A stretch of DNA of 64,000 nt, taken from NCBI RefSeq assembly GCF_900177415.1, contig NZ_FXAF01000006.1, positions 768,001-832,000 of the forward strand, written 5' to 3'. The notes under the pieces are model-generated. The model ran no database searches. It was not told where the DNA came from and was given only the letters and a program-made list of their open reading frames with translations. Numbering within the stretch: position 1 is the stretch's first letter; each line of letters starts with the position of its first letter. This document shows, one piece after another, positions 9,087-54,975 of the stretch. Both the position numbers and the translations under genes were made by a program. Origin of the DNA: Xaviernesmea oryzae (GTDB lineage Bacteria; Pseudomonadota; Alphaproteobacteria; Rhizobiales; Rhizobiaceae).

Positions 9087-9502
9087 TCGTTCTTGACACG
9101 AACATCGTCTCCGAGCTTCAGGGGCGGCAGCATAGTGAGCATCTCCTGGTGTGGCTCTCTCAATATGAAGTGGAGGCATTGTTCCTGACGACGGTCGTCG
9201 TCGCGGAGATGCGTTATGGATTGGAATTGCTGCCGCAAGGGCGGCGACAAGCTGAACTGTTGAAAGCGTTCGATACTGTCCAAGAGCGGTTTCTTGGACG
9301 AATATTGGGGTTTTCAATTCAGGCGGCTAACTATTACGGCATCCTTCGCGCACGGCGTAAGAGGCTGGGCCGGCCGATCGAAGCCAAGGACGCCATGATC
9401 GCCGCGATCTGCCTTTCCCATGGCGCGACGCTGGCGACCAGGAACGTAAAAGACTTCGAAGGGCTTGATCTTCGGCTGGTAAACCCGTTTGAAGGCGCCT
9501 GA
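9083..9502 (+). CDS. PIN-domain ribonuclease toxin, VapC/FitB type
   Basis: A 139-residue PIN-domain protein, the usual length for VapC/FitB toxins, which are Mg-dependent endoribonucleases. The four acidic active-site positions are all present: Asp5 (LDTN), Glu42 (VAEMRYG), Asp103 (AKDAMIAA) and Asp124 (TRNVKDFEG). The toxin therefore looks intact. Most relatives cut tRNA or rRNA at defined sites; the target here is unknown. It overlaps the antitoxin gene by 4 bp and ends 24 bp before fmt, inside a block of translation genes. Confidence 0.92.
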   Translation: MIVLDTNIVSELQGRQHSEHLLVWLSQYEVEALFLTTVVVAEMRYGLELLPQGRRQAELLKAFDTVQERFLGRILGFSIQAANYYGILRARRKRLGRPIEAKDAMIAAICLSHGATLATRNVKDFEGLDLRLVNPFEGA

Positions 9503-9526: not shown

Positions 9527-10480
9527 ATGTCTCTTCGCATCATCTTCATGGGCACGCCGGAATTTTCCGTCCCGACCCTGCACGGCCTGAAGCACGCGGG
9601 CCACGATATCGTGGCGGTCTATACCCAGCCGCCGCGGCCGGGCGGACGGCGTGGCCTCGATCTCGTGAAATCGCCCGTGCATCAGGCTGCAGAACTGCTG
9701 GGGATTCCCGTCTTCACGCCGGTCAATTTCAAAGCCGAAGAGGATCGCGAAAGATTCCGCGCGCTGAATGCCGACGTGGCGGTGGTCGTGGCTTACGGCC
9801 TGCTGCTGCCGGAGGCGATCCTCACCGGGACGCGGCTCGGCTGCTATAACGGCCATGCGTCGCTCCTGCCCCGCTGGCGGGGAGCGGCGCCCATCCAACG
9901 GGCGATCATGGCGGGCGATAAAAAGACCGGCATGATGGTGATGCGGATGGAGAAGGGGCTGGACACCGGCCCGGTCGCGCTCACCAGAGAGGTGGAGATC
10001 GGCGAGAACATGACGGCCGGCGAACTGCACGACAAGCTGATGCAGGTCGGCGCCCGCGCCATGGCCGAGGCGATGGACAAGCTGGAGGCGGACGACCTGC
10101 CGCTGACGCCGCAGCCCGAAGAGGGGGTACTTTACGCCGCCAAGATCGACAAGGGCGAGACGCGTGTCGATTTTTTAAAACCGGCGCGCGACGTGCACAA
10201 TCACATCCGCGGCCTGTCGCCGTTCCCGGGCGCCTGGTTCGAGGTGGAGATCAACGGCAGGCCGGAACGGGTGAAGGTCCTGTCCTCCGAACTGGGTGAG
10301 GGAAGCGGCGAAGCCGGGAAGGTGCTGGACGATGCGCTGACGGTCGCCTGCGGCGAGGGCGCGGTCCGGCTGCTGAAGCTCCAGAAGGCGGGCGGCAAGC
10401 CGCTCGCCGCGGCGGAATTCCTGCGGGGCACGCCGATCCCGGCCGGCACGCGACTCGCGGCACAGACGGGATCGGCCTGA
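9527..10480 (+). CDS. fmt: Methionyl-tRNA formyltransferase
   Basis: A 317-residue enzyme that formylates Met-tRNAi with 10-formyl-THF. The N-terminal Rossmann domain carries the catalytic Asn108 and His110 ([14 protein letters not shown]) and Asp146 (MEKGLDTG). The C-terminal OB-like domain begins near residue 205. It is the functional partner of def, which removes the same formyl group. The stop overlaps the truA start (TGATG), so fmt and truA are coupled. Confidence 0.97.
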
Positions 10481-30295: not shown

Positions 30296-30372
30296 GCACC
30301 CGTAGCTCAGCTGGATAGAGCACCAGACTACGAATCTGGGGGTCAGGAGTTCGAATCTCTTCGGGTGCGCCA
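30296..30372 (+). tRNA. tRNA-Arg (anticodon ACG)
   Basis: A complete 77-nt tRNA with a 7-bp acceptor stem (GCACCCG/CGGGTGC), D-arm, anticodon stem CCAGA/TCTGG with loop CTACGAA (anticodon ACG at 30330-30332), T-arm with TTCGAAT and an encoded CCA. The A at position 34 would be edited to inosine to read CGU/CGC/CGA. No integrase or duplicated 3' end was seen beside it. Confidence 0.97.
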
Positions 30373-43003: not shown

Positions 43004-43540
43004 TTACAGCTTCCGGACGTTCTTCATCATCAGCCGCATGACGCGGATGGCGGCCTCCAGGTCGTCGGGGTCGGCGCCTTCGATGAGCGTCTCCTCGCGG
43101 CGGAGCGCGATGCGGATGATCTTGGCGTGGAGCTCGTAGCCTTTTTCGTTGAGCCACCAGAGCCGCTTGCGCGGATCCTTCTCGGACGAGACCGAATCCA
43201 GATAGCCGAGCTCGTCGAGCGTGGCGAGTGCGCGGCTTGCTGCCGCCTTGTCGAGATTGATGACTTCGCAGATGCGCGCGGCGGTGATCCCGGGCTCGAT
43301 GGCGAGCATCGAGACGGTACGCCACTCGCTGATGCCGATGCCGAAGCGCTCGCGGTAGAGGTTCGATGCACCGCGCGAGAGCGCGTTGTTGATGCTGGAG
43401 AGGAAGAAGGGGACGTAGTTGGTGATGTCGAGGATCTCGACGCCGTCTCGTGTGGTCGTCGATTCCGAAATGCGTCCTTGAGGGCACGGCGCGCGCGCGT
43501 CCGCTGGCGGCGCTTTGGTCTGCCTCTCGGTCGGTGTCAT
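43004..43540 (-). CDS. MarR-family transcriptional regulator of the P450 operon
   Basis: A 178-residue winged-helix regulator. The core (about 40-160) has 'ISEWRTVSMLAIEPGITAARICEVINLDKAAASRALATLDELGYL' as helix-turn-helix and 'SEKDPRKRLWWLNEKGYELH' as the wing. The start overlaps the reductase stop (TGATG), making it the last gene of a nine-gene operon. The twin inverted repeats at 51002-51058 over the operon promoter are the likely operator. MarR proteins of this kind usually release DNA on binding an aromatic acid or its CoA ester. Confidence 0.92.
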   Translation of the reverse strand: MTPTERQTKAPPADARAPCPQGRISESTTTRDGVEILDITNYVPFFLSSINNALSRGASNLYRERFGIGISEWRTVSMLAIEPGITAARICEVINLDKAAASRALATLDELGYLDSVSSEKDPRKRLWWLNEKGYELHAKIIRIALRREETLIEGADPDDLEAAIRVMRLMMKNVRKL

Positions 43541-44775
43541 CAGGTTTGCACTTTCCTGGCCTTTGCCAGTCCGCCGATGTCGAAACCGCATTGCGCCAGT
43601 TCGTCGAACTTCACCTTGGTGGGCGACTTGAGCAGCTGGCGCGCGGCCATGTGTTCGGCGGCGGCGTTGATTGTCTCCAAGGCCAGCAATTTGCCCAATT
43701 TGAAACGGAACACAAGCTTGCGTCCATCCTCTTTCTCGATCGCGTGATCTTCGTCGGCACCAACGCCCAAACCGGCGATCTGGAGCTTGAGCGGTCCCTG
43801 ATCGCTCCAGAACCACGGCACCGCCTCATAGGCGTGAGGCTTGCCGGTGAGACGGCGGGCGATCGTTCGGGCATGGTCCGTGGCGGCCTGTACCGATTCC
43901 AGCCGTATCGACCGGCCGGAAGAGGGGTCGGGAAAGGCCGCACAGTCGCCGAGGGCGGAGATGTCGGGGTCCGAGGTCCGCATGAAGCCGTCGACCACGA
44001 TGCCGTTGGCGACCGTAAGTCCCGCTTGCTCCGCGAGCTCGACATTCGGGCGAATGCCGGCCGCGACGAGCACCATGTCGCCATCGATGACCTCGCCGTC
44101 CGCGAGGCGTGCGCCGACCACGTCGCCCGCCTGGTCGCGCAGGATCTCGGTGACCGCCGCACCACGGACGAGCCGGGTACCCGATTTCGTATGATAATCC
44201 AGGAAACGCTGCGACATGGCGGGGGAAAGCGCTCGCGCCATCAGGCGCTCCGCCGCCTCCACCACCGTCGCCTCGTGGCCGCCCGCAGCCGCGACGGCGG
44301 CGAATTCCAGGCCGATGAAGCCGCCGCCGATGACGATCGGGCGCCGGCTGCCCCGGGCGAGGGCGTCCCGAAGGCGGCACGCGTCTTCTGCGGTGCGAAG
44401 ACCGAAGACTCCCCGTCCGTCGAGCCCCCTGATCGGCGGGACGAAATTGCGCGCACCCGTCGCGAGCACGAGGTGGTCGTAGGCGATGGCGACGCCGCCC
44501 AGGGTCTCGATCGCTTTTGCGTTCCGGTCGATCCGGATCACGCGCTCGGAGGCCATCAGGGTGATGGCGTTGCGATCGAAGAAGCTTTCCGGCCTGAGCT
44601 CGATGGCGTTCACGCGCCCGTCCTTGAGATAGGCTTTTGACAGGGGCGGGCGTTGATAGGGCCGTCCGGGCTCGTCGCCGATCAGGGTGACCGGACCTTC
44701 ATAGCCCTCCTGCCTCAGGCTGGCGGCGAGCTGGAAGCCGCCTTGCCCGGCGCCGATGACGACGACGCCCGTCAT
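43540..44775 (-). CDS. FAD-dependent ferredoxin reductase of the P450 system
   Basis: A 411-residue NADH-dependent reductase of the putidaredoxin-reductase type. The FAD motif GAGQGG (8-13) opens the protein, the NAD motif is 'IVIGGGFIGLEFAA' and 'DISALGDCAAFPDP' is the second FAD block; 'LVRGAAVTEIL' and a reductase C-terminal domain follow. It should pass electrons from NADH to the adjacent [2Fe-2S] ferredoxin. The start overlaps the ferredoxin stop by 4 bp. The open frame upstream lies within the ferredoxin gene and is not used. Confidence 0.94.
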   Translation of the reverse strand: MTGVVVIGAGQGGFQLAASLRQEGYEGPVTLIGDEPGRPYQRPPLSKAYLKDGRVNAIELRPESFFDRNAITLMASERVIRIDRNAKAIETLGGVAIAYDHLVLATGARNFVPPIRGLDGRGVFGLRTAEDACRLRDALARGSRRPIVIGGGFIGLEFAAVAAAGGHEATVVEAAERLMARALSPAMSQRFLDYHTKSGTRLVRGAAVTEILRDQAGDVVGARLADGEVIDGDMVLVAAGIRPNVELAEQAGLTVANGIVVDGFMRTSDPDISALGDCAAFPDPSSGRSIRLESVQAATDHARTIARRLTGKPHAYEAVPWFWSDQGPLKLQIAGLGVGADEDHAIEKEDGRKLVFRFKLGKLLALETINAAAEHMAARQLLKSPTKVKFDELAQCGFDIGGLAKARKVQT

Positions 44776-45095
44776 GTCTGGCTCTCCGGCAGATGCACGA
44801 CGAGGCCGTCCAGCTCGGGCTCTATCCGGATCTGACAGGACAGCCGGCTCGTCGGCTTCACCTCGCAGGCGGCGCTTTCCAGCATGTCCTCTTCGCCGTC
44901 GGCTCGCGGGCCGACCCGGTCCGCCCACGCATCGTCGACATAGCAATGGCAGGTGGCGCACATCATGGACCCGCCGCATTCGCCGACGATACCGTCGATA
45001 TCGTTGGCAAGCGCGGCGCGCATGACATTGTCGCCGTTGGCGATGTCGATGGTCGTCTCCGTGCCGTCATGGGCGATGAAAGTCACGTTCGTCAT
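44772..45095 (-). CDS. [2Fe-2S] ferredoxin, putidaredoxin type
   Basis: A 107-residue vertebrate-type/adrenodoxin-like ferredoxin. The four cluster ligands are Cys40, Cys46, Cys49 (GECGGSMMCATCHCYV) and Cys87 (RLSCQIR). The C-terminal hydrophobic-acidic tail is as in P450 redox partners such as putidaredoxin. It sits between P450 and reductase and should carry single electrons between them. Confidence 0.96.
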   Translation of the reverse strand: MTNVTFIAHDGTETTIDIANGDNVMRAALANDIDGIVGECGGSMMCATCHCYVDDAWADRVGPRADGEEDMLESAACEVKPTSRLSCQIRIEPELDGLVVHLPESQT

Positions 45096-45104
45096 CCTGG
45101 GCTC

Positions 45105-46328
45105 CTATTTCGCGACGAATTTGAGCGGCAGGCGGTCGAGCGCGTGGATGGCGTTGTTGGGCCGCCAGACGGGTTCGCCGTCGAACTCGATGCGATCCAC
45201 CTTCTCCGCGAGCACCGAGAGCACGATCTCCAGTTCGAGGCGCGCGAGGTTCTGCCCGACGCAGCCGTGGATGCCAGCGCCGAAGGCCATGTGGCCGACC
45301 GGCTTGCGGTCGATGCGGAAGATGTCCGGATCGCCCCATTTGGCGGGGTCGAGATTGGCGGAAGCAAGCGCGCAGAGGATTTTCGTGCCCTCGGCGATGC
45401 CGTATCCCGCCACTTCCGTATCCTGGTTGGCCGTTCGCGCGAAGGTATGGACGGGGGAGGTGAAGCGCAGCACTTCCTCGAAGCAGGGCCGGGCGAGGGC
45501 CGGATCGGCCTTCAGCCTGTCGTATTCCCGCGGATTGGACGCGAGGCACCAGAGTGCATTGCCGATGCCGGTCACCGTCGTGTCGACGCCGGCCGACAGG
45601 AAGGAGCGCACCAGCATGGCGGCTTCCTCCTCGGTCACCTCGCCGTCGTCCGCGGCGCCGTAGATGAGCGCCCCGAGCCCGTCCTTGGTCAAGCGGTCGC
45701 GGGCGCATGCCGCGGTGATCCAGGGCACGATATCCGGTACCTGCGCCATCGCCGCCCGGCGGAACTTGTTGTCCGGGCCGAGCGCGTTGAAGACCATGGC
45801 GCCGTAATCCACCAGCCGACGCCGGTCGCTGTCGACCATGCCGAGCGCCTTCGGGAAGACCGTCACGGGAAAGGCTTCCGCGAGCTCGGCGACAGCCTCG
45901 AAGCTGCCCTTTGCGACCAGGCCGTCGACGATGCGCTCGGCCGCCTCGCGGAAGGCGTCCTTCAAGCCGGAAATGGCCTTGGGCGACAAAGCGCGCGCCA
46001 TCACCTTGCGCGTCTTGGTGTGATCCGGCGGGTCCACCTCCAGAATGATCGACGGCGCTCGCCAGGGCTTGCCGTACTTGAAGTCGTTGAGCCCCACGCC
46101 GCGGGACGAGACGAAGCGGGTATGGTCGGAAAAGATCTCGCGCGTTTCGTCGTAGCGGCCGCAGGCGAGCACCGAATATTTCGGGATGTAGACCAGCGGC
46201 CCGTGCCGGCGCAGTTCCGCGTAGTAATCCTCCGCGTTGAGCAGCACCTCTTCCGCATAGGGATCGATGTCCCAGACGGGAATGCCGGCGGCGGGCTCGA
46301 AGGCAACGTGCCCCTCGATCATGTTCAT
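45105..46328 (-). CDS. Cytochrome P450, CYP199A-like
   Basis: A 407-residue soluble class I P450. The haem motif is FGAGIHGCVG with Cys356; the I-helix acid-alcohol pair is Asp249-Thr250 (SAGVDTT); 'FEEVLRF' is the ExxR helix. From memory of CYP199A4, the run 'SSRGVGLNDFKYGKPWRAPS' is nearly the same there, with a constant offset of two residues. Its carboxylate-binding residues correspond to Arg90, Ser93, Arg241 and Ser242 here. This points to para-substituted benzoates, for example O-demethylation of 4-methoxybenzoate. ATG 46328 gives the normal N-terminus. The gene lies between livF and ferredoxin in one operon. Confidence 0.93.
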   Translation of the reverse strand: MNMIEGHVAFEPAAGIPVWDIDPYAEEVLLNAEDYYAELRRHGPLVYIPKYSVLACGRYDETREIFSDHTRFVSSRGVGLNDFKYGKPWRAPSIILEVDPPDHTKTRKVMARALSPKAISGLKDAFREAAERIVDGLVAKGSFEAVAELAEAFPVTVFPKALGMVDSDRRRLVDYGAMVFNALGPDNKFRRAAMAQVPDIVPWITAACARDRLTKDGLGALIYGAADDGEVTEEEAAMLVRSFLSAGVDTTVTGIGNALWCLASNPREYDRLKADPALARPCFEEVLRFTSPVHTFARTANQDTEVAGYGIAEGTKILCALASANLDPAKWGDPDIFRIDRKPVGHMAFGAGIHGCVGQNLARLELEIVLSVLAEKVDRIEFDGEPVWRPNNAIHALDRLPLKFVAK

Positions 46329-46341
46329 GGCGATATCCTCC

Positions 46342-47055
46342 TCAATTGGTCGTGCGGCCGACGCCGATATGCCGCTCCAGCAGCTCCGGCTGCTGTCGCA
46401 AGGCAGTGGCGCTGCCGTCGTAGACGATGGTTCCGTTGGTGATGACGACCGCGCGCGTGGCGAAGGCGAGCGCGGCGGAAGCATGTTGCTCGACCAGCAT
46501 CACGGTCCGCCGCCCGTCCGCGGCCAGTTGCTCGAAGGCATGCATCAGCTGTTCGCAGATGACGGGTGCGAGACCCTCCAGGGGTTCGTCCAGAAGCACG
46601 ATCCCCGGCTCCGTCATCAGGGTTCTGGCGATCGAGAGCATCTGCTGCTCGCCGCCGGACAGCTGGGTGCCGCCGTTCCTGCGGCGCTCCTTGAGCCGGG
46701 GGAACAGCGCATAGGCCTCCTCCAGCGAGGCGTCGCCCCGCATGACGACGGTCAGGTTCTCCTCGACCGTCAGCGACGGGAAGATGTCGCGGGTCTGCGG
46801 CACCAGCCCGAGGCCCAGCATGGAGCGCCGGTGCGGCGAATGGCGCGATATGTCGGTGCCCGCAAGTGTGATGCGTCCGCTATGGAGCCGCGTCAGCCCC
46901 ATGATCGTCGCGAGCATGGTCGTCTTGCCGGCACCGTTGCGGCCGATGACCGCCAGCCGTTCTCCACGGGAAATGCTGAGGGAAAGTTCGCGCAAGACGT
47001 GGGTCTGGCCGTATCCTGCGGTGACGTTTTCGAGTGCGAGCACGGTCTCAGACAT
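46342..47055 (-). CDS. ABC transporter ATP-binding protein, LivF type
   Basis: A 237-residue ATPase of the branched-chain amino-acid/aromatic-acid (HAAT) uptake family. Walker A is GRNGAGKTT, signature QLSGGEQQML, Walker B 'GIVLLDEPLEG'. It overlaps livG by 8 bp. Placed next to a P450 that acts on aromatic acids, the transporter more likely imports an aromatic carboxylate than leucine. Confidence 0.95.
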   Translation of the reverse strand: MSETVLALENVTAGYGQTHVLRELSLSISRGERLAVIGRNGAGKTTMLATIMGLTRLHSGRITLAGTDISRHSPHRRSMLGLGLVPQTRDIFPSLTVEENLTVVMRGDASLEEAYALFPRLKERRRNGGTQLSGGEQQMLSIARTLMTEPGIVLLDEPLEGLAPVICEQLMHAFEQLAADGRRTVMLVEQHASAALAFATRAVVITNGTIVYDGSATALRQQPELLERHIGVGRTTN

Positions 47056-47794
47056 GGGCTTCTCCGAGGTAGAGCTGGCGGACCATAGGGTCGCGGCTGA
47101 TCTCGTCGGGCGTGCCTTCGGTGAGGATGCGGCCGTTGACGAGCACGACGATCGACCGGGCGATGCGGAAGACCAGATCCATGTCGTGCTCGATGATCAG
47201 CACCGCGAGCTCGGCGGGCAGACGCTCGATCGCCTGCAGGATCAGGTGGCTTTCGCTCGACGGAACGCCGGCCGCGGGTTCGTCGAGGATCAGCACGCGC
47301 GGCCTGAGCGCGAGGGTCAGCGCCAGTTCGACGAGCCGTTGCTGGCCATAGGCAAGCAGGTGGATCGGCTTGTCGGCGAGAGGCAGCAGGGCGAACTGGT
47401 CGAGCAGGGCATCGATTTCCGCTTCGGTCGCACGGTCTGCCGCTGCTCCTCCGAACATGCGCCCGCCGCGTCCCTGCCTTTCGAGAATCGGCAGCCGGAT
47501 GTTTTCGCGCACCGTCATGGTGCGGAAGAGCGTCGTGATCTGGAAGGTCTTGGCGATGCCGCGCTTGACGCGTTCGCTCTCGCCCAGACTGCCGATATCG
47601 CTGCCGTCGAAGCGGATGCTTCCGCCGCTCGGCTTCAGCTTGCCGGTCACCAGATTCGCGAATGTCGTCTTGCCAGCCCCGTTGGGGCCGATCAGCGCCT
47701 TCCGGGCGCCGGGGGGGAGGTCGAAGTCGATCTCTTGCGCGACGGTCAGTCCGCCGAAGGACTTTCTGAGGCCGCGGACTTCAAGGCCTTGCAT
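47048..47794 (-). CDS. ABC transporter ATP-binding protein, LivG type
   Basis: A 248-residue ATPase. Walker A is GPNGAGKTT; Walker B is 'RVLILDEPAAGVPSSE'. The signature region reads LLAYGQQRLVELALTL, with AYGQQ in place of the LSxGQ seen in most families, as is common in LivG proteins. It pairs with LivF as the second ATPase. It overlaps livM by 14 bp. Confidence 0.95.
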   Translation of the reverse strand: MQGLEVRGLRKSFGGLTVAQEIDFDLPPGARKALIGPNGAGKTTFANLVTGKLKPSGGSIRFDGSDIGSLGESERVKRGIAKTFQITTLFRTMTVRENIRLPILERQGRGGRMFGGAAADRATEAEIDALLDQFALLPLADKPIHLLAYGQQRLVELALTLALRPRVLILDEPAAGVPSSESHLILQAIERLPAELAVLIIEHDMDLVFRIARSIVVLVNGRILTEGTPDEISRDPMVRQLYLGEAHV

Positions 47795-48782
47795 CGCCGT
47801 TCCTCCCGGTGAGATTGCGAAGAGCGGCAGGAATGCCGAGCATGCCCGCCGGCACGAAGAAGACGATGCCGAGAACCAGCGCGCCGATGATGAAGAGCCA
47901 GTTGAACGGATCGACGGAGGCGGCGATGTGGTGAACCACCATGAAGATCAGCGTGCCGATGATCGCGCCGTGAAGCCTGCCGGCGCCGCCGAGGATCAGC
48001 ATGATCAGGGCCTCGGCGGAGAGATTGAAGGCATAGACCTCGAGGCTGACGAGCTGGGTGACCTGGGCCGCGAGCGCGCCCGCCACGCCGGCGACCGCAC
48101 CGCCGATGGTGTAGATCGTGACCAGCCGGCGATAGACCGGACTGCCGATCGCCACCATGCGCGCCGCGCTGTCCTTGATGCCGCGAACCGAAAGGCCGAT
48201 CGGCGAGAGCGTGACGACCTTCAGGACCGCATAGCAGACGCAGAGGACGGCGAGCGCATACCAGAAGCCGGTCCGGCCGACGAAATCGAACTTGAAGAGG
48301 CCGAGGACGGGCTCCATGCGGATGCCGCGCAGGCCGTCCGCGCCGCCGGTCAGGTCGCGCGCCTTGTTGGCGATCTCCTGACAGATCAGCGTTACGGCAA
48401 TGGAGAGCATCAGCAGGGTCAGCCCGTGGGCGCGCATCAGCAGCAGGCCGGAAACCAGGGCGAGGGCGGCGCCGGCCGCCGCTCCGACGACGAGGCCGGT
48501 GACCGGATCGGCCGAGACATGCACGGCGAAAAGGCCGGCGGCGTAAGCGCCGGTGCCGTAAAGCGCGGCATGGCCGAGCGTGGCGATGCCGGCATAGCCG
48601 AGCACCAGGTCGAGAGATAGCACGAACAGCATCATCACCATGATCCGGGTGAGGAGTGCGAGATCGTAGGGGAAGAGAAAATAGGCGATGACGGCGAGTG
48701 CCAGCATGACCGCCTCGGGCATCAGCGGCACGCCGCGGATGCGGGTTCGGATCGTGGTCAATGGGATCTCCTGAACGCTCAT
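47781..48782 (-). CDS. ABC transporter permease, LivM type
   Basis: A 333-residue membrane protein with about nine to ten TM segments. 'LDLVLGYAGIATLGHAALYGTGAYAAGLFAV' is the N-terminal LivM block and 'RMVAIGSPVYRRLVTIYTIGGAVAGVAGAL' the EAA-like cytoplasmic loop region. It forms the pore with LivH. Confidence 0.95.
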   Translation of the reverse strand: MSVQEIPLTTIRTRIRGVPLMPEAVMLALAVIAYFLFPYDLALLTRIMVMMLFVLSLDLVLGYAGIATLGHAALYGTGAYAAGLFAVHVSADPVTGLVVGAAAGAALALVSGLLLMRAHGLTLLMLSIAVTLICQEIANKARDLTGGADGLRGIRMEPVLGLFKFDFVGRTGFWYALAVLCVCYAVLKVVTLSPIGLSVRGIKDSAARMVAIGSPVYRRLVTIYTIGGAVAGVAGALAAQVTQLVSLEVYAFNLSAEALIMLILGGAGRLHGAIIGTLIFMVVHHIAASVDPFNWLFIIGALVLGIVFFVPAGMLGIPAALRNLTGRNGDARP

Positions 48783-48783
48783 G

Positions 48784-49644
48784 TCACGCCTTTCCGAGAA
48801 GGCCCCTGGGGCGGATCGCGAGCACGGCCATGACGGCCGCGAAGAAGACGATCGTGCCGAAGTCGGGGATCAGGTAGCGGGAGGCCGTTTCGAGGATGCC
48901 GAGCGCGAGCGCCGCCATGAACGAGCCGGTGATGGAGCCCATGCCGCCGACCGAGACGACGATCAGGAACAGGACCATGTAGCGGAGCGGGTAATAGGCA
49001 TCGATGGGCAGGAGTTCGGCGCCGAGAATGCCGCCAAGCGCCGCAAGCCCCGCGCCGAGACAGAAGGTTGCGGCGAAGACCGCGTCGATGTTGATGCCGA
49101 GCGCGCTGGCGATGCTGCGGTTGTCGACGGCGGCGCGCAGCCTGGTGCCGAAACGGCTCCGTTCGATCGTCAGATAGAGCCCGGCGATCACGACGGCGCC
49201 GGCCAGTATCACCGCCAGCCGATGAGCGGGCAGCACGCGGAAGCCGAGATCGACCGACTGCTGCAGAAAATCGGGCAGAGGGATTGCCAGCAGGCTGGAA
49301 CCCAGCAGCCGGTTGACGAGGGCAATGAAGATGAAGGTGATGCCGATGGTCGCCAGCACCTGCTGCAACTCGCCGAGCCCGTAGATGCGGCGATAGACCA
49401 GGCGCTCGAGCAGGAAGGCGATGGCCATGGTCGCCATGATGGCAAGCAGCGCGGCAGCCATGAAGGAAAGTCCGGCGCGGGCGATCAGCGCGTGGGCGGC
49501 CGCGCCCCCGAGAAGCGCGAAGGCGCCATGGGCGAGATTGATCACGCGCATCAGGCCCATCGTGACCGACAGGCCGATGGAGATCATGAACAGGATCATC
49601 CCGTAGGCTATGCCGTCGACGGCAATGTTGAGTATGAGTGACAT
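48784..49644 (-). CDS. ABC transporter permease, LivH type
   Basis: A 286-residue permease of about eight TM segments. 'AYGMILFMISIGLSVTMGLMRVINLAHGAF' is the typical LivH start, and 'DNRSIASALGINIDAVFAATFCLGAGLAAL' is the ATPase-contact loop. It follows the binding-protein gene after 130 bp. Confidence 0.95.
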   Translation of the reverse strand: MSLILNIAVDGIAYGMILFMISIGLSVTMGLMRVINLAHGAFALLGGAAAHALIARAGLSFMAAALLAIMATMAIAFLLERLVYRRIYGLGELQQVLATIGITFIFIALVNRLLGSSLLAIPLPDFLQQSVDLGFRVLPAHRLAVILAGAVVIAGLYLTIERSRFGTRLRAAVDNRSIASALGINIDAVFAATFCLGAGLAALGGILGAELLPIDAYYPLRYMVLFLIVVSVGGMGSITGSFMAALALGILETASRYLIPDFGTIVFFAAVMAVLAIRPRGLLGKA

Positions 49645-49774
49645 CGTCCGGTCCTTGCTTCGGCGGCGCGAGAGATCCCGCCCGCGCCTTCCGGCGCGGA
49701 AACAGCCGCCTTCTTCGATCGACAGTTCAGAGATGCATGGGACCGGCGGCGCTGCTGGCCGCCGGCGGCCGGGG

Positions 49775-50941
49775 TCAGTCGGTCCAGCCGAGGTCGCCGA
49801 CCGTGGCGATCACGCCCTTCTCGCGGTTGACGAGCCGCCCGCTGTCCTTGTCGCGCTCGACGTCGCGGATGTAGACGTTCTGGATCAGGGTGCGGGTCTT
49901 CGGATCCATTTCCACGGGTCCGCGCGGGCTTTCCCATTTCAGCGATTTCACCGCTTCGATCGCCTTCGGCCCGTCCGCGCCGGCGGCCTCGACCATCTTG
50001 TAGATCAGGTGCGTGCCGTCATAGGCGCCGACCGAGGCCCAGTTGGCCACGGCGCCGGCGGACAGCTCGCCGAGCTTCTTGGTGAATGCGGCATTGACGT
50101 CGGAATCATGCGCTTCGGAATAGTGAAACGCGGTCGTCAGGCCGATTGCCGCATCGCCGAGCGCCTGGAGATTGGATTCCTCGGTTTCGGCGGTTCCCAG
50201 GAAGCGGATGCCCTCTTTCGCGAGGCCGTTTTCGTTATAGCTCTTGGTGAAGCCGAAAGTCGGCGGGCCGCCGGGCAGGAAGGCGAAGACGCCGTTCGGC
50301 GCCTGGCTGCGGACCCGCTGGATGAAGGGCGTGAAGTCCGTGGTCGCGAGCGGCATGCGGATCGTGTCGATCACCTTGCCGCCCTTCTTCTCGAAGGCGG
50401 CCTTGAAGGCGTTTTCGGCGTCGATGCCCGGGCCATAGTCGGAAACCGCCGTCACCACGGTGTGAATGCCCTGGTCATACGCCCAATCGGCAAGCGGTGT
50501 GGAAACCTGCCAGAGCGTATAGCTCGTGCGGAGAAAATAGGGCGACTGCTTGTTGATCGCCGACGTGGCGGCGTTGAAGATGACGGTCGGCGTCTCCGAC
50601 TGCTCGATCAGCGGCGCGAGCGCCAGCGCGTTCGGCGTGAAGGTGAGACCGGCGAGATAATTGACCCGGTCGCGAATGAGCAGTTCCTGGGCCAGCGTCT
50701 TGGCAAGATCCGGATTGGCGCCGCCGACGTCCTTGTAGATGAATTCGATGTCGTGGCCGCCGGACTGGCTGCCATGCTGGGCGACGTAGGTCTCGATCGC
50801 TTCCTTGTATTGCTTGCCATAAATGGCGAAGGGGCCGGAGAATTCGGCGATCACGCCGACCTTGATGGTATCCGCCCAACAGGCGCCCGCGCAAAGCGTC
50901 GCCATCGCGGCCGCAAGCGCGGCGCGTACAAGATTGTTCAT
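49775..50941 (-). CDS. ABC transporter substrate-binding protein (HAAT family)
   Basis: A 388-residue periplasmic binding protein with signal peptide (residues 1-23, ending ACWA) and a Leu/Ile/Val-binding-protein fold ('IKVGVIAEFSGPFAIYGKQY', 'NPDLAKTLAQELLIRDRV', 'HTVVTAVSDYGPGIDAENAF'). Such proteins also bind benzoates, coumarate and other aromatic acids in rhizobia and Rhodopseudomonas. It is the first gene of the P450 operon; the start ATG 50941 is about 80 nt after the predicted transcription start. The 130-bp gap to livH may limit downstream expression. Confidence 0.94.
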   Translation of the reverse strand: MNNLVRAALAAAMATLCAGACWADTIKVGVIAEFSGPFAIYGKQYKEAIETYVAQHGSQSGGHDIEFIYKDVGGANPDLAKTLAQELLIRDRVNYLAGLTFTPNALALAPLIEQSETPTVIFNAATSAINKQSPYFLRTSYTLWQVSTPLADWAYDQGIHTVVTAVSDYGPGIDAENAFKAAFEKKGGKVIDTIRMPLATTDFTPFIQRVRSQAPNGVFAFLPGGPPTFGFTKSYNENGLAKEGIRFLGTAETEESNLQALGDAAIGLTTAFHYSEAHDSDVNAAFTKKLGELSAGAVANWASVGAYDGTHLIYKMVEAAGADGPKAIEAVKSLKWESPRGPVEMDPKTRTLIQNVYIRDVERDKDSGRLVNREKGVIATVGDLGWTD

Positions 50942-51001
50942 GATTTCCTCCCAAAGCGTCAAACGGCGCCGGCCAGATCCTCCATGGCCAGGCGAGCCGA
51001 T

Positions 51002-51058
51002 GAGTTGCGATCACAACTCGACCAGCATTAAGACCTCAACGAGTTGTGATGTCAACTC
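51002..51058 (-). promoter_or_regulatory. P450-operon promoter flanked by two near-identical operators
   Basis: Two 18-bp inverted repeats GAGTTG-N6-CAACTC lie at 51002-51019 and 51041-51058, centres 39 bp apart. When the second is reverse-complemented, the extended sites differ at only two of about 20 positions. On the minus strand a perfect -35 TTGACA (51055-51050) lies inside the distal repeat, and a -10 CTTAAT (51032-51027) follows after 17 bp. The proximal repeat covers the predicted start site at about 51020. This is a repression layout; the MarR protein encoded last in the operon is the likely ligand. Confidence 0.82.
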
Positions 51059-51136
51059 ATAATTTCCTGACGCGATCGGGGGCGAGGTTTTCCAAATCAA
51101 ATCGCAATGGAACCCGCTGCCGGAAACGCATCTGTC

Positions 51137-51440: not shown

Positions 51441-52169
51441 TCAGTTGCCGCCGGGCTTGAACTGCGCCGTGACCATATGCCGGTTGCCGGGATAAGTCAG
51501 GCGGACGTTCGTGACCGGGCCCGCATAGCTCCATGTCTGCCGTTCGATTACAAGACAGGCATGCCCGGCGCTCAGCTTCAGGAATTTCGCCTCCTTCTTG
51601 CCTGCGGATACCGCCTGAATGCGGTGCTCGGCAGCCGTCCAGGGTATCTGGGCGAGCAGCCATGGGCCCGGTGCCAGGGTTTCGAACTCGAATTCGCCGG
51701 CTTCCGGCACGGTTTCGAGATTGATCAACCGCTCTTCGAGACAGAAGGGCTGTCCGCCGGCGGAATGAAGGCAGGTGACGTCGACGATGCGGGCCGGCGA
51801 AGAAGGCGCCGAAGTCAGACCAAGCCGGCGGCGGTCCTCCGCATCCGCGTCACGCTGAGCACGCGATATCAGCGCATAACCGTAGGCGAGGTTCAGGGAT
51901 TGGACTTCTTCCCTGATATCGTGAATCTCGAGAACCGCGGACTGTGCCTTCGGCTGGGTGACGAAGCTGCCCGATCTCTTCCGGCGCTCGATCAGCCCCG
52001 CCTGGACAAGCTGCGTCATGACCTTGTTCACGGTCATGCGCGAGCAGCCGTATTGCCGGGCAAGATCCACCTCGAACGGCAGCCGGAATCCGGGAGGCCA
52101 TTCGCCGGATACGATGCGACCTTCGATATCGCTCAGGATCTTCCGATGCAGGGTGGAATCTTGGGAAAT
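51441..52169 (-). CDS. hutC: Histidine-utilisation repressor HutC (GntR family), probable AUU start
   Basis: A 242-residue GntR/HutC repressor. The winged helix (about 5-70: 'LHRKILSDIEGRIVSGEWPPG', 'YGCSRMTVNKVMTQLVQAGLIERRKRSGSF') is followed by a UTRA ligand domain (about 95-235) that senses urocanate. The frame has no ATG, GTG or TTG at the expected N-terminus, and none upstream for dozens of codons. The codon matching the usual family start is ATT (52169-52167), with AAGGA eight bases before it, so an AUU start is proposed. It lies 77 bp after hutF on the same strand. The operator is at 53673-53686. Confidence 0.88.
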   Translation of the reverse strand: MSQDSTLHRKILSDIEGRIVSGEWPPGFRLPFEVDLARQYGCSRMTVNKVMTQLVQAGLIERRKRSGSFVTQPKAQSAVLEIHDIREEVQSLNLAYGYALISRAQRDADAEDRRRLGLTSAPSSPARIVDVTCLHSAGGQPFCLEERLINLETVPEAGEFEFETLAPGPWLLAQIPWTAAEHRIQAVSAGKKEAKFLKLSAGHACLVIERQTWSYAGPVTNVRLTYPGNRHMVTAQFKPGGN

Positions 52170-52246
52170 GACCGTCGTCCTTGCCTTGTCTTTCCTTCCG
52201 GCACTAGCGCAACATGAGGATATTGCAAGGCCAATTGCCCCGCAGA

Positions 52247-53608
52247 TCAGGTTTCCATGAGGGAGCGCATGGTGCGGGCGAACCGCTTGCTGATCGCGTC
52301 CCGGCTTACGTGACGGCCGCCCGCCACCTGTTTTCGGCCGCGCGCCCAGACGCTGTCCACCGATATGCCGCTGCTGAAGATCCAGTGATCGAGCAGGCGA
52401 TCTTCCGAAAGATAGGGGACCGCGCCTATGTCGAGCGAGACGATATCCGCCGGAGCGCCGGCAACGAGGCCCGACGCCGATTGCAGCGCGGCTCCGCCGC
52501 CGATGATCGCCTCGTCGAAGAGCCTGCGGCCTGTCGATCCGTTGGGATCGGCGACGACGTTGCGCGCCCGCAATGCCAGGCGCTGCGAATATTCGAGCTG
52601 GCGCAGTTCCTGCGGCAGAGAGACCAGAACGTTGGAGTCCGAACCGATCCCGTATCGGCCGCCTTCGGCCAGAAAGGCAGGGGCGGCGAAGGTCCCGTCT
52701 CCGAGATTGGCCTCGGTGATCGGGCAGAGCCCGGCGACGGCCCTGCTGCGCGCCATGGCTTGGACTTCCCGGTCCGTCATGTGGGTGGCGTGTATCAGGC
52801 ACCAGTGCTTGTCGAGGGGTGCGTTTGCAAGCAGCCATTCGACCGGGCGGGCGCCGGACCAGGCGATACAGTCCTCCACCTCCTTCACCTGTTCGGCGAC
52901 GTGGATATGGATTGGCCCGCCGCCGGCCATCGGCAGAAGCTCGGCGAGCTCGTCCGGCGTCACGGCGCGCAGGCTGTGCGGTGCGATGCCCAATTCCATC
53001 CCGTCCAGGCGGGATTTCATCGTCCGGCAGGCCCGCATGAGCTCGGCGAAGCGGTCGATCGAATTGACGAACCTGCGCTGCCCTTCGACGGGCTCAGCCC
53101 CGCCGAAGCCGGAATGGGCGTAGAAGACCGGCAGCAGGGTAAGCCCGATGCCCGCCGCCTCGCTTGCCGCGCCGATCCGTTCGGCTAGCTCGGCGATGTT
53201 GCCATACGATTGTCCATCCCTGTCGTGATGCAGGTAGTGGAACTCGCCGACGCGGCAGAATCCGGCTTCGAGCATTTCCATGTAAAGCTGCGCCGCCACC
53301 GCCTCGACCTGCTCTGGCGTCATCGTCAGGGCGAATTTGTACATCACGCTGCGCCAGCTCCAGAAGCTGTCGGCCGCAGGTCCCCGGACTTCCGCGAGCC
53401 CCGCCATGGCGCGCTGGAAGGCGTGGCTGTGAAGGTTTCCCATTCCGGGGATCAGGACGGCATGGGCCTCGTCGCCGGCTGCGGCCGGCACGCCGGTTTC
53501 GATCCCGGAGATAAGGCCGCCGCTGAGGGTGAGGCGCACGTCGGAATGCCAGCCTTCGGGCAGGAGCGCCGCGTCTGCGTGCAGAGTGGTCCCGGTCGAT
53601 CGCGTCAT
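52247..53608 (-). CDS. hutF: Formimidoylglutamate deiminase
   Basis: A 453-residue amidohydrolase that converts N-formimino-glutamate to N-formyl-glutamate and ammonia. Metal ligands are in '[16 protein letters not shown]', 'IHIHVAEQ', 'LIHATHMTD' and 'GIGSDSNV'. With HutG it makes the five-step pathway. It is divergent from hutI, sharing the operator region. Confidence 0.95.
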
Positions 53609-53672
53609 CGTTGAGCGGCCTCCTTCTCGCCGGCCAAGGCTTACCAGATTTTTCGCTTGTCAGTGCTTTTAT

Positions 53673-53686
53673 TATGTATATACATA
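53673..53686. promoter_or_regulatory. HutC operator between hutF and hutI
   Basis: A 14-bp perfect palindrome TATGTATATACATA whose core TGTATATACA matches the HutC operator consensus known from other proteobacteria. It lies midway in the divergent hutF/hutI intergenic region, 27 bp before the hutI start, where HutC could block both promoters until urocanate accumulates. Confidence 0.82.
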
Positions 53687-53712
53687 TTTACGCAGAAGGA
53701 AAGGGGAAGGCG

Positions 53713-54975
53713 ATGAGCAGGCTGGGAAATTCCTCCGAGGAAGCTGCGCAGGGGACAGGGACAACGCTCTGGCGCAACGCCAGGCTCGCGACGCTTTCGC
53801 CCGACGCCGCCGGTCTCGGCATCGTCGGGAATGGGGTTCTCGCGGTTCGCGACGGCTGTATCGCCTATGCCGGTGCGGCGGATGGGCTTCCGTCACATTT
53901 TCTGCGCGATGCGTCCGAGGTCGATTGCGAAGGGCGCTGGATCACGCCGGCGCTGATCGACTGCCACACCCATCTGGTCTACGGCGGCGATCGCGCGCTC
54001 GAATTCGAGATGCGGCTTGCCGGTGCATCTTATGAGGAAATCGCCCGCGCCGGCGGCGGCATCATCTCCTCGGTCAAGGCGACCAACGGGCTTTCCGAGG
54101 ATGCGCTGGTGGAACAGGCGCTGCCAAGGCTGGATACGCTTCTGAGCGAGGGCGTCTCCACGGTCGAGATCAAGTCCGGTTACGGCCTCAACGTCGAGGC
54201 CGAGCTGAAGATGCTGCGGGCCGCACGGCGGCTTGCCGATCTCCGCCCCGTGCGGATCGTGACGAGCTGGCTTGCCGCACATGCCGTTCCGCCGGAATAC
54301 AAGGGCCGGAGCGCTGCCTATCTCGACGAGGTGGTGCTGCCCGGTCTGGAGATGGCGTCCGAACAGGGCCTCGTCGATGCCGTCGACGGCTTCTGCGAGA
54401 ACATCGCCTTTTCGGTCGATGAGATGCGGACCGTCTTCGGCAAGGCGAAGGAACTCGGCCTGCGGGTGAAGCTGCATGCCGAGCAGCTTTCCAATCTTGG
54501 CGGCGCCAGGCTTGCCGCATCCTGCGGCGCGTTGTCCGCCGATCACCTGGAATATCTCGACGAAGAAGGCGCGAAAGCGATGGCGGAGGCGGGCACGGTT
54601 GCCGTTCTTCTCCCCGGCGCCTTCTATACGTTGCGCGAAAAGCAGGCGCCGCCGGTTGCGGCCCTTCGCGAAACCGGCGCGCATATCGCGATTGCCACGG
54701 ACAGCAATCCCGGCACGTCGCCGCTGACCTCCCTGCTCCTGACGATGAACATGTCGGCGACGCTCTTCGGGCTGACGGTCGAGGAATGTCTGGCCGGCAC
54801 GACACGCGAGGCTGCGAGGGCGCTCGGCCTGCTCGCCGAGACCGGCACGCTGGAGGCCGGAAAATCGGCCGACTTCGCGATCTGGAGCATCGAGCGGCCG
54901 GCCGAGCTCGTCTACCGCATCGGTTTCAACCCACTTCACAGCCGTGTCTTCAAAGGCCAGCAGGTATCCGCATGA
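53713..54975 (+). CDS. hutI: Imidazolonepropionase
   Basis: A 420-residue amidohydrolase that opens imidazolone propionate to N-formimino-glutamate. Metal and catalytic motifs include '[14 protein letters not shown]', '[23 protein letters not shown]', '[15 protein letters not shown]' and '[11 protein letters not shown]'. ATG 53713 has GGGGAAGG upstream; the open frame before it crosses the operator and is not used. The stop overlaps the hutH start by 4 bp. Confidence 0.96.

Follow-up and report, generated by a model that had tools for sequence, protein, structure and literature searches.

We analysed a 64,000-nucleotide stretch of the Xaviernesmea oryzae genome (assembly GCF_900177415.1, contig NZ_FXAF01000006.1, positions 768,001 to 832,000; hereafter the window), in which nine intact, open genes on the minus strand (43004-50941) encode, in this order, an ATP-binding cassette (ABC) substrate-binding protein (SBP), LivH, LivM, LivG, LivF, a cytochrome P450, a [2Fe-2S] ferredoxin, a ferredoxin reductase and a MarR-family regulator. 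This block is probably a self-regulated catabolic operon, in which MarR would control both the import of 4-methoxybenzoate-type acids and their O-demethylation to 4-hydroxybenzoate and formaldehyde. A first-pass annotation, made from the DNA letters alone, had described it as an operon coupling aromatic-acid uptake to a complete P450 redox chain and its own MarR regulator; its observations and nearly all of its interpretation are supported by the results presented here.

The single-strand order of the nine genes and the tight junctions proposed in that annotation, from a 130-bp gap down to overlaps, were borne out by the measured spacings. Gaps of 130, 1, 13 and 9 bp separate SBP-LivH, LivH-LivM, LivF-P450 and P450-ferredoxin, respectively, and overlaps of 14, 8, 4 and 1 bp join LivM-LivG, LivG-LivF, ferredoxin-reductase and reductase-MarR. 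The proteins fall into the Pfam families Peripla_BP_6, BPD_transp_2 (twice), ABC ATPase (twice), p450, Fer2, Pyr_redox_2 plus Reductase_C, and MarR_2; related NCBIfam families were also matched, none above its cut-off among the matches listed. The spacing, together with the conserved order and the one conserved promoter-like site described below, suggests that the nine genes form a single transcript. A regulatory stem-loop in the 130-bp SBP-LivH gap was considered and found unsupported (fold z-score of -1.16, with 24 of 200 shuffles folding equally well).

Scanning genome contigs with the P450 as the query, a search with a single protein that reaches close relatives only, gave 50 loci, to which 20 further stretches were added (70 loci). 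The core set contains 56 loci with a P450 of at least 52% identity, the duplicate L053 being dropped, and seven of them, including L076, are cut by contig ends. The full nine-gene order on one strand, which the first-pass annotation had suggested looking for in relatives, recurs in 14 of the 56 (the SBP of L076 is cut by the contig end, and L081 and L112 are one species), so the order is not due to chance. LivF directly precedes the P450 in 27 loci, and ferredoxin, reductase and MarR belong to the block in 26, 20 and 28, respectively. The nine-gene form was found in Rhizobiaceae (the genus of the window, Rhizobium and Pseudorhizobium), and in Rhodobacterales (e.g. Paracoccus, Alloyangia and Salipiger); a Hyphomicrobiales bin (L094) and an unassigned alphaproteobacterium (L076) each have it as well. 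The P450 has its nearest named relatives in the Rhizobiaceae. Of the 57 genomes of the genus, 5 carry a close P450 (at least 63% identity), own genome included, and in the order a P450 with E up to 1e-90 is present in 25 of 397 genomes.

By neighbour clustering with a simple gene finder (L051-L053 not included), none of the genes flanking the block in the window clustered with genes of the other loci covered, and the segment 52300-54900 matches genome G007 at about 43 kb from that genome's P450; the block may therefore be a unit that moves between genomes. On a quick, midpoint-rooted P450 tree, the transporter-P450 link required 11 changes, at least 5 of them forced by starred branches, compared with a mean of 22 after shuffling. 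A single origin of the link was rejected on this basis, and the link appears to have been gained or lost repeatedly.

The SBP (structure model with a predicted local distance difference test score, pLDDT, of 88) shares 49% identity and the same fold with RPA0985 and RPB_2270, compared with 16-20% identity to the leucine-binding proteins among the matches listed. It thus groups with benzoate binders and not with leucine binders; the kinship with true leucine systems, which the first-pass annotation had set against its own proposal, was not found in this SBP comparison, and a leucine-transporter reading was rejected on the same figures. RPA0985, the nearest solved structure, carries a 4-hydroxybenzo- ligand, of the benzoate class, and the third-ranked relative, 4ey3/4eyg, was solved with p-hydroxybenzoic acid among its ligands. 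4-Hydroxybenzoic acid is reported to shift RPA0985 by 29.5 °C, and the protein is placed among those that bind benzenes with a single carboxyl group and apart from those that bind propenoid side chains (PMC3223731). The closest SBP paralogue in the own genome (53% identity) belongs to an SBP-LivH-LivM-LivG-LivF cassette on contig C9, located 2.6 kb downstream of pcaH. This cassette has the same gene order, and each of its five subunits is 51-55% identical to its counterpart; it differs from the block in its position near pcaH and in having no CYP199-type P450 match in its 19.9 kb stretch. Taken together, the affinity to RPA0985, the distance from the leucine binders listed and the paralogous cassette near pcaH argue for aromatic-acid uptake, as had been proposed.

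The best PDB matches of the P450 are CYP199A2 and CYP199A4, with an identity of 47-48%, above the 40% cut-off of the CYP199 family. Its model superimposes on 4-methoxybenzoate-bound CYP199A2 with a template-modelling (TM) score of 0.94 (48% identity) and also matches the PbdA structure 9g9q (44% identity), and the protein carries the string FGAGIHGCVG. In CYP199A4 numbering, mapped from the P450-PDB alignment, the pocket consists of V80, R92, S95, L98, F182, L185, R243, S244, A248, D251, T252, V295, F298 and C358. Every listed residue except 185 matches CYP199A4. The carboxylate-binding Arg92, Ser95 and Ser244, with Arg243, are present, as in CYP199 enzymes; of the CYP199A-type ring pocket (Phe182, Phe185, Val295, Phe298), three residues are kept and Phe185 is replaced by Leu. 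The protein is classed as a CYP199 variant without the CYP199A-type pocket. The roles of R92, S95, L98, F182, R243, S244 and A248 in the carboxylate and ring pocket are described in PMC11854964. Among the relatives, the P450 of L102 differs in two of these residues, with Gln at position 92 and Ala at position 244.

The ferredoxin contains Cys40, Cys46, Cys49 and Cys87 among its six cysteine residues, and its best solved match is 4ltu, a Pux-type ferredoxin; that of the reductase is 3fg2, which is PuR. The four cluster cysteines, the flavin/nicotinamide adenine dinucleotide (FAD/NAD) reductase and these two matches are consistent with the complete class I chain of the first-pass annotation.

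Upstream of the SBP gene, two operator-like palindromes, GAGTTGACATCACAACTC and GAGTTGTGATCGCAACTC, surround a TTGACA-N17-CTTAAT element. The outer edge of the upstream palindrome, at 51058, agrees with the end of the block at 51060 in the first-pass annotation. The exact pattern GAGTTG-N6-CAACTC has two copies in the 6.07 Mb genome, both at the likely promoter of the block. Only pairs were counted in the relatives, as single palindromes with at least 10 of 12 matches also occur scattered (e.g. L062:16270, L094:17384 and L118:623). A pair 36-39 bp apart lies within 310 bp before the SBP in 11 of 22 other loci with an SBP of at least 58% identity (L053 dropped; the promoter of L076 lies beyond its contig); with 500 shuffles per locus, no pair was obtained except 2 for L051, and a control motif gave no pair across 1.5 Mb. 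Where the P450 heads the block, the pair precedes the P450 (L056, L087, L090, L097 and L106).

Counting a pair anywhere in the locus and a MarR of at least 40% identity, 20 of the 56 loci have both, 10 MarR only, 2 the pair only (L098 and L120) and 24 neither, i.e. the pair is present in 20 of 30 loci with MarR and in 2 of 26 without (Fisher p = 6e-6, relatedness ignored). L075 and L091, with MarR and without a pair, retain one site each. The MarR-family gene and a paired promoter palindrome that has no other exact copy in the genome and tracks MarR in relatives support the proposal that the block has its own regulator. Near the own pobA and pca genes (L132/L133), no palindrome was found at 9 of 12 matches with intact core, so there is no sign of shared control by the MarR of the block. 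In L085 (15148-16930), a pair (15148, 15186) stands just before the start of a minus-strand ferredoxin gene and a further site (16912) precedes a second P450, which is a more distant one, a layout that would possibly represent a multi-promoter regulon of its MarR.

Models of pobA and pcaH matched only other contigs, so the statement that no ring-cleavage genes follow the block holds for the families tested. The own genome encodes pobA (670 bits, cut-off 538.7) and pcaH (356 bits, cut-off 296.4), both on contig C9, and a formaldehyde dehydrogenase on contig C1 (589 bits, cut-off 543.95); the two C9 genes are consistent with a product feeding a pathway elsewhere, as had been suggested. The neighbours in the 70 loci were queried with PobA (from L109), formaldehyde dehydrogenase (L077), LigB (L094) and the own-genome PcaH, the last of which had no match in any of the 70. 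PobA was found in four loci, L109 (the query itself), L111, L094 and L089. It lies directly before the P450 in L109 and L111, and in a convergent cluster with LigB in L094 and L089; in L094 this cluster is convergent with the nine-gene block, PobA being about 2.9 kb from the MarR end. LigB was also found in L114 and L117. Formaldehyde dehydrogenase likewise occurs in four loci, L077 (the query itself) and, at 73-74% identity, L079, L082 and L096; the order in L079 is palindromes, formaldehyde dehydrogenase, P450, ferredoxin, reductase. The PobA of L109 and L094 and the formaldehyde dehydrogenase of L077 pass their NCBIfam cut-offs. These two neighbours would handle both products expected from the O-demethylation of 4-methoxybenzoate.

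In the mechanism that we propose, the periplasmic protein and LivHMGF would import a probably plant-derived benzoate substituted at the para position; the most likely candidate is 4-methoxybenzoate (p-anisate) or a relative such as veratrate. Electrons from NADH would pass through the reductase and the ferredoxin to the CYP199-type P450, which would O-demethylate the imported acid to 4-hydroxybenzoate and formaldehyde. PobA and protocatechuate 3,4-dioxygenase, both encoded on another contig, would convert the former; for the latter, contig C1 encodes a glutathione-dependent dehydrogenase. As long as substrate is absent, MarR would occupy both palindromes, of which one covers the -35 and the other closely follows the -10, and would keep the single promoter blocked until an aromatic acid releases it.

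Several observations weigh against this proposal. PobA is missing from 66 of the 70 loci, as is formaldehyde dehydrogenase, and both queries were chosen after recurrent neighbours had been seen; moreover, L109/L111 and L089/L094 are sister lineages, so the PobA cases may be two events. PobA is present in 55 of 57 genomes of the genus, so its presence in the own genome says little, and pobA as a co-occurring partner within the genus was discarded as a useless test. Among the relatives, 29 of 56 have no LivF before the P450, and the block contains no ferredoxin in 30 and no reductase in 36, some through contig ends. The one-mismatch palindrome is not enriched genome-wide (8 places compared with 18 for a reversed control pattern), and 10 of the 30 MarR loci have no pair, five of these being cut at the 5' end of the block. 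The P450 model (pLDDT 83) falls below 50 at residues 83-102, which hold the equivalents of R92 and S95. Finally, F185 is kept in CYP199A2 and CYP199A4 and is Leu in the window, so the substrate may not be p-anisate.

This last point bears on the possibility that the same uptake and P450 logic serves a bulkier natural substrate, a para-alkyl or para-alkoxy benzoate or a cinnamate such as p-coumarate or 4-methoxycinnamate, which we consider unlikely although position 185, a small aliphatic residue as in engineered F185L enzymes, makes it possible. In the window and all 56 loci, 185 is L, V, I, M or G and never F, compared with F in 12 of the 13 loci at 40-49% identity and S in one (L059); on the P450 tree, L057 and L058, with Leu at 185, fall with the Phe185 side, so the residue marks no single clean clade. 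Engineered CYP199A2 F185L was used for hydroxylation of p-coumarate to caffeate (PMC7011507), and smaller residues at 185 are reported to change p-ethylbenzoate chemistry (PMC11530827). The grouping of RPA0985 with single-carboxyl binders and apart from the propenoid binders (PMC3223731) speaks against such a substrate, and the PobA and formaldehyde dehydrogenase neighbours, in few loci, point to a demethylated benzoate. With the same low confidence, the block may represent a natural and widespread CYP199 branch with small aliphatic residues for Phe185, packaged with an importer and a MarR switch and mobile among Alphaproteobacteria, which would oxidise a larger plant aromatic acid handled poorly by the known CYP199A enzymes.

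It is improbable that a 3-hydroxylated or 3-methoxylated benzoate (isovanillate, veratrate) is imported and loses its para methyl to give protocatechuate or vanillate. The SBP relative 4ey3/4eyg, solved with another compound besides p-hydroxybenzoic acid, would be compatible with such a substrate, and CYP199A4 and PbdA demethylate veratrate too; however, the binding of 4-methoxybenzoate by CYP199A2 and CYP199A4 is reported to exceed that of veratrate by about three orders of magnitude (PMC11530827), and the neighbour found is PobA (no search for a vanillate demethylase was made). Chance placement of a P450 operon next to an unrelated branched-chain amino-acid transporter, for which the Liv-type genes and the 29 P450s without a preceding LivF could be invoked, is hardly credible given the LivF-P450 junction in 27 loci, the 14 complete blocks, the affinity of the SBP to an aromatic-acid binder and the palindrome pair before the SBP or, in five P450-headed loci, before the P450. 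O-demethylation of a 4-methoxybenzoate-type acid is the most probable reading.

The block resembles the CYP199A2/CYP199A4 system of Rhodopseudomonas palustris (P450, palustrisredoxin Pux and reductase PuR) in its class I chain and in a carboxylate and ring pocket identical except for Leu instead of Phe at 185. It differs in that reductase, transporter and MarR all lie inside the block, whereas in R. palustris the PuR gene is at another place. Rhodococcus jostii RHA1 has PbdAB, also a P450 with its own partner that demethylates lignin-derived benzoates. PbdA is a CYP199A member reported to O-demethylate 4-methoxybenzoate and veratrate, and it differs from the window P450 in its partner reductase PbdB and in keeping Phe176, the F185 position by numbering (PMC11530827). 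No paper on a CYP199-ABC-MarR operon was found by title or abstract start among the open-licence papers listed. Each part is of a known kind; what appears to be new is their combination in one complete package, together with the natural replacement of residue 185. O-demethylation of methoxylated aromatics is described as a rate-determining step in emerging lignin valorisation (PMC11530827). A working P450 also requires uptake and matched redox partners; the block provides the importer and the P450 with both of its carriers, along with a switch that probably responds to a ligand, and is thus a candidate cassette and biosensor, and the natural replacements at 185 offer dozens of homologues for probing what this residue selects. 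The coordinates of the features are given in Table 1.

Table 1. Features of the nine-gene block and its putative promoter (window coordinates).
Feature	Position	Strand	Basis
Upstream operator-like palindrome GAGTTGACATCACAACTC, containing the -35-like TTGACA (51050-51055)	51041..51058	-	sequence, genome count, conservation
-10-like CTTAAT of the putative promoter, 17 bp past TTGACA, between the palindromes	51027..51032	-	visual inspection; comparable arrangement in relatives
Downstream operator-like palindrome GAGTTGTGATCGCAACTC; start-to-start distance to the upstream one, 39 bp	51002..51019	-	sequence, genome count, conservation
ABC substrate-binding protein (Peripla_BP_6), 388 aa	49775..50941	-	Pfam, structure comparison
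LivH-type permease, 286 aa	48784..49644	-	Pfam, NCBIfam
LivM-type permease, 333 aa	47781..48782	-	Pfam, NCBIfam
LivG-type ATPase, 248 aa	47048..47794	-	Pfam, NCBIfam
LivF-type ATPase, 237 aa	46342..47055	-	Pfam, NCBIfam
CYP199-type cytochrome P450, 407 aa; Leu at the CYP199A4 Phe185 position	45105..46328	-	Pfam, PDB matches, pocket alignment
Putidaredoxin-type [2Fe-2S] ferredoxin, 107 aa	44772..45095	-	Pfam, PDB match
FAD ferredoxin reductase (Pyr_redox_2 + Reductase_C), 411 aa	43540..44775	-	Pfam, PDB match
MarR-family regulator, 178 aa	43004..43540	-	Pfam

Other arrangements were observed around related P450s. In Rhizobium lusitanum (L073:9170-10001) the transporter is gone; after what looks like an internal deletion, the stretch from the palindrome pair (9170, 9208) to the P450 retains only two fragments, one SBP-like (9282-9470, 52%) and one LivF-like (9529-9852, 37%). 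Ten genomes of the same order (L060-L069; family codes f35 and f42) have a P450 of 47-49% identity with Phe at 185 and a 37-43% MarR nearby, divergent in all except L063; the P450 of L061 is followed by a Peripla_BP_6 gene whose cluster is seen again across L060-L069. A TRAP-type (tripartite ATP-independent periplasmic) binding protein is divergent beside the P450 in L114, and clustering indicates the same arrangement for L085, L115 and L117; in these loci another importer may replace the ABC one. A GD_AH-type (galactarate/altronate dehydratase) gene precedes the CYP199-type P450 on its upstream side in L100, L104 and L107 (Vineibacter, Reyranella and an alphaproteobacterium).

Elsewhere in the window, a tRNA-Arg (ACG) at 30296-30372 is the only RNA gene obtained from two scans and the sole Rfam match at gathering score. 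Beyond the block, the translations of 51441-54975 read by eye like a HutC-type regulator, a formimidoylglutamate deiminase and an imidazolonepropionase.

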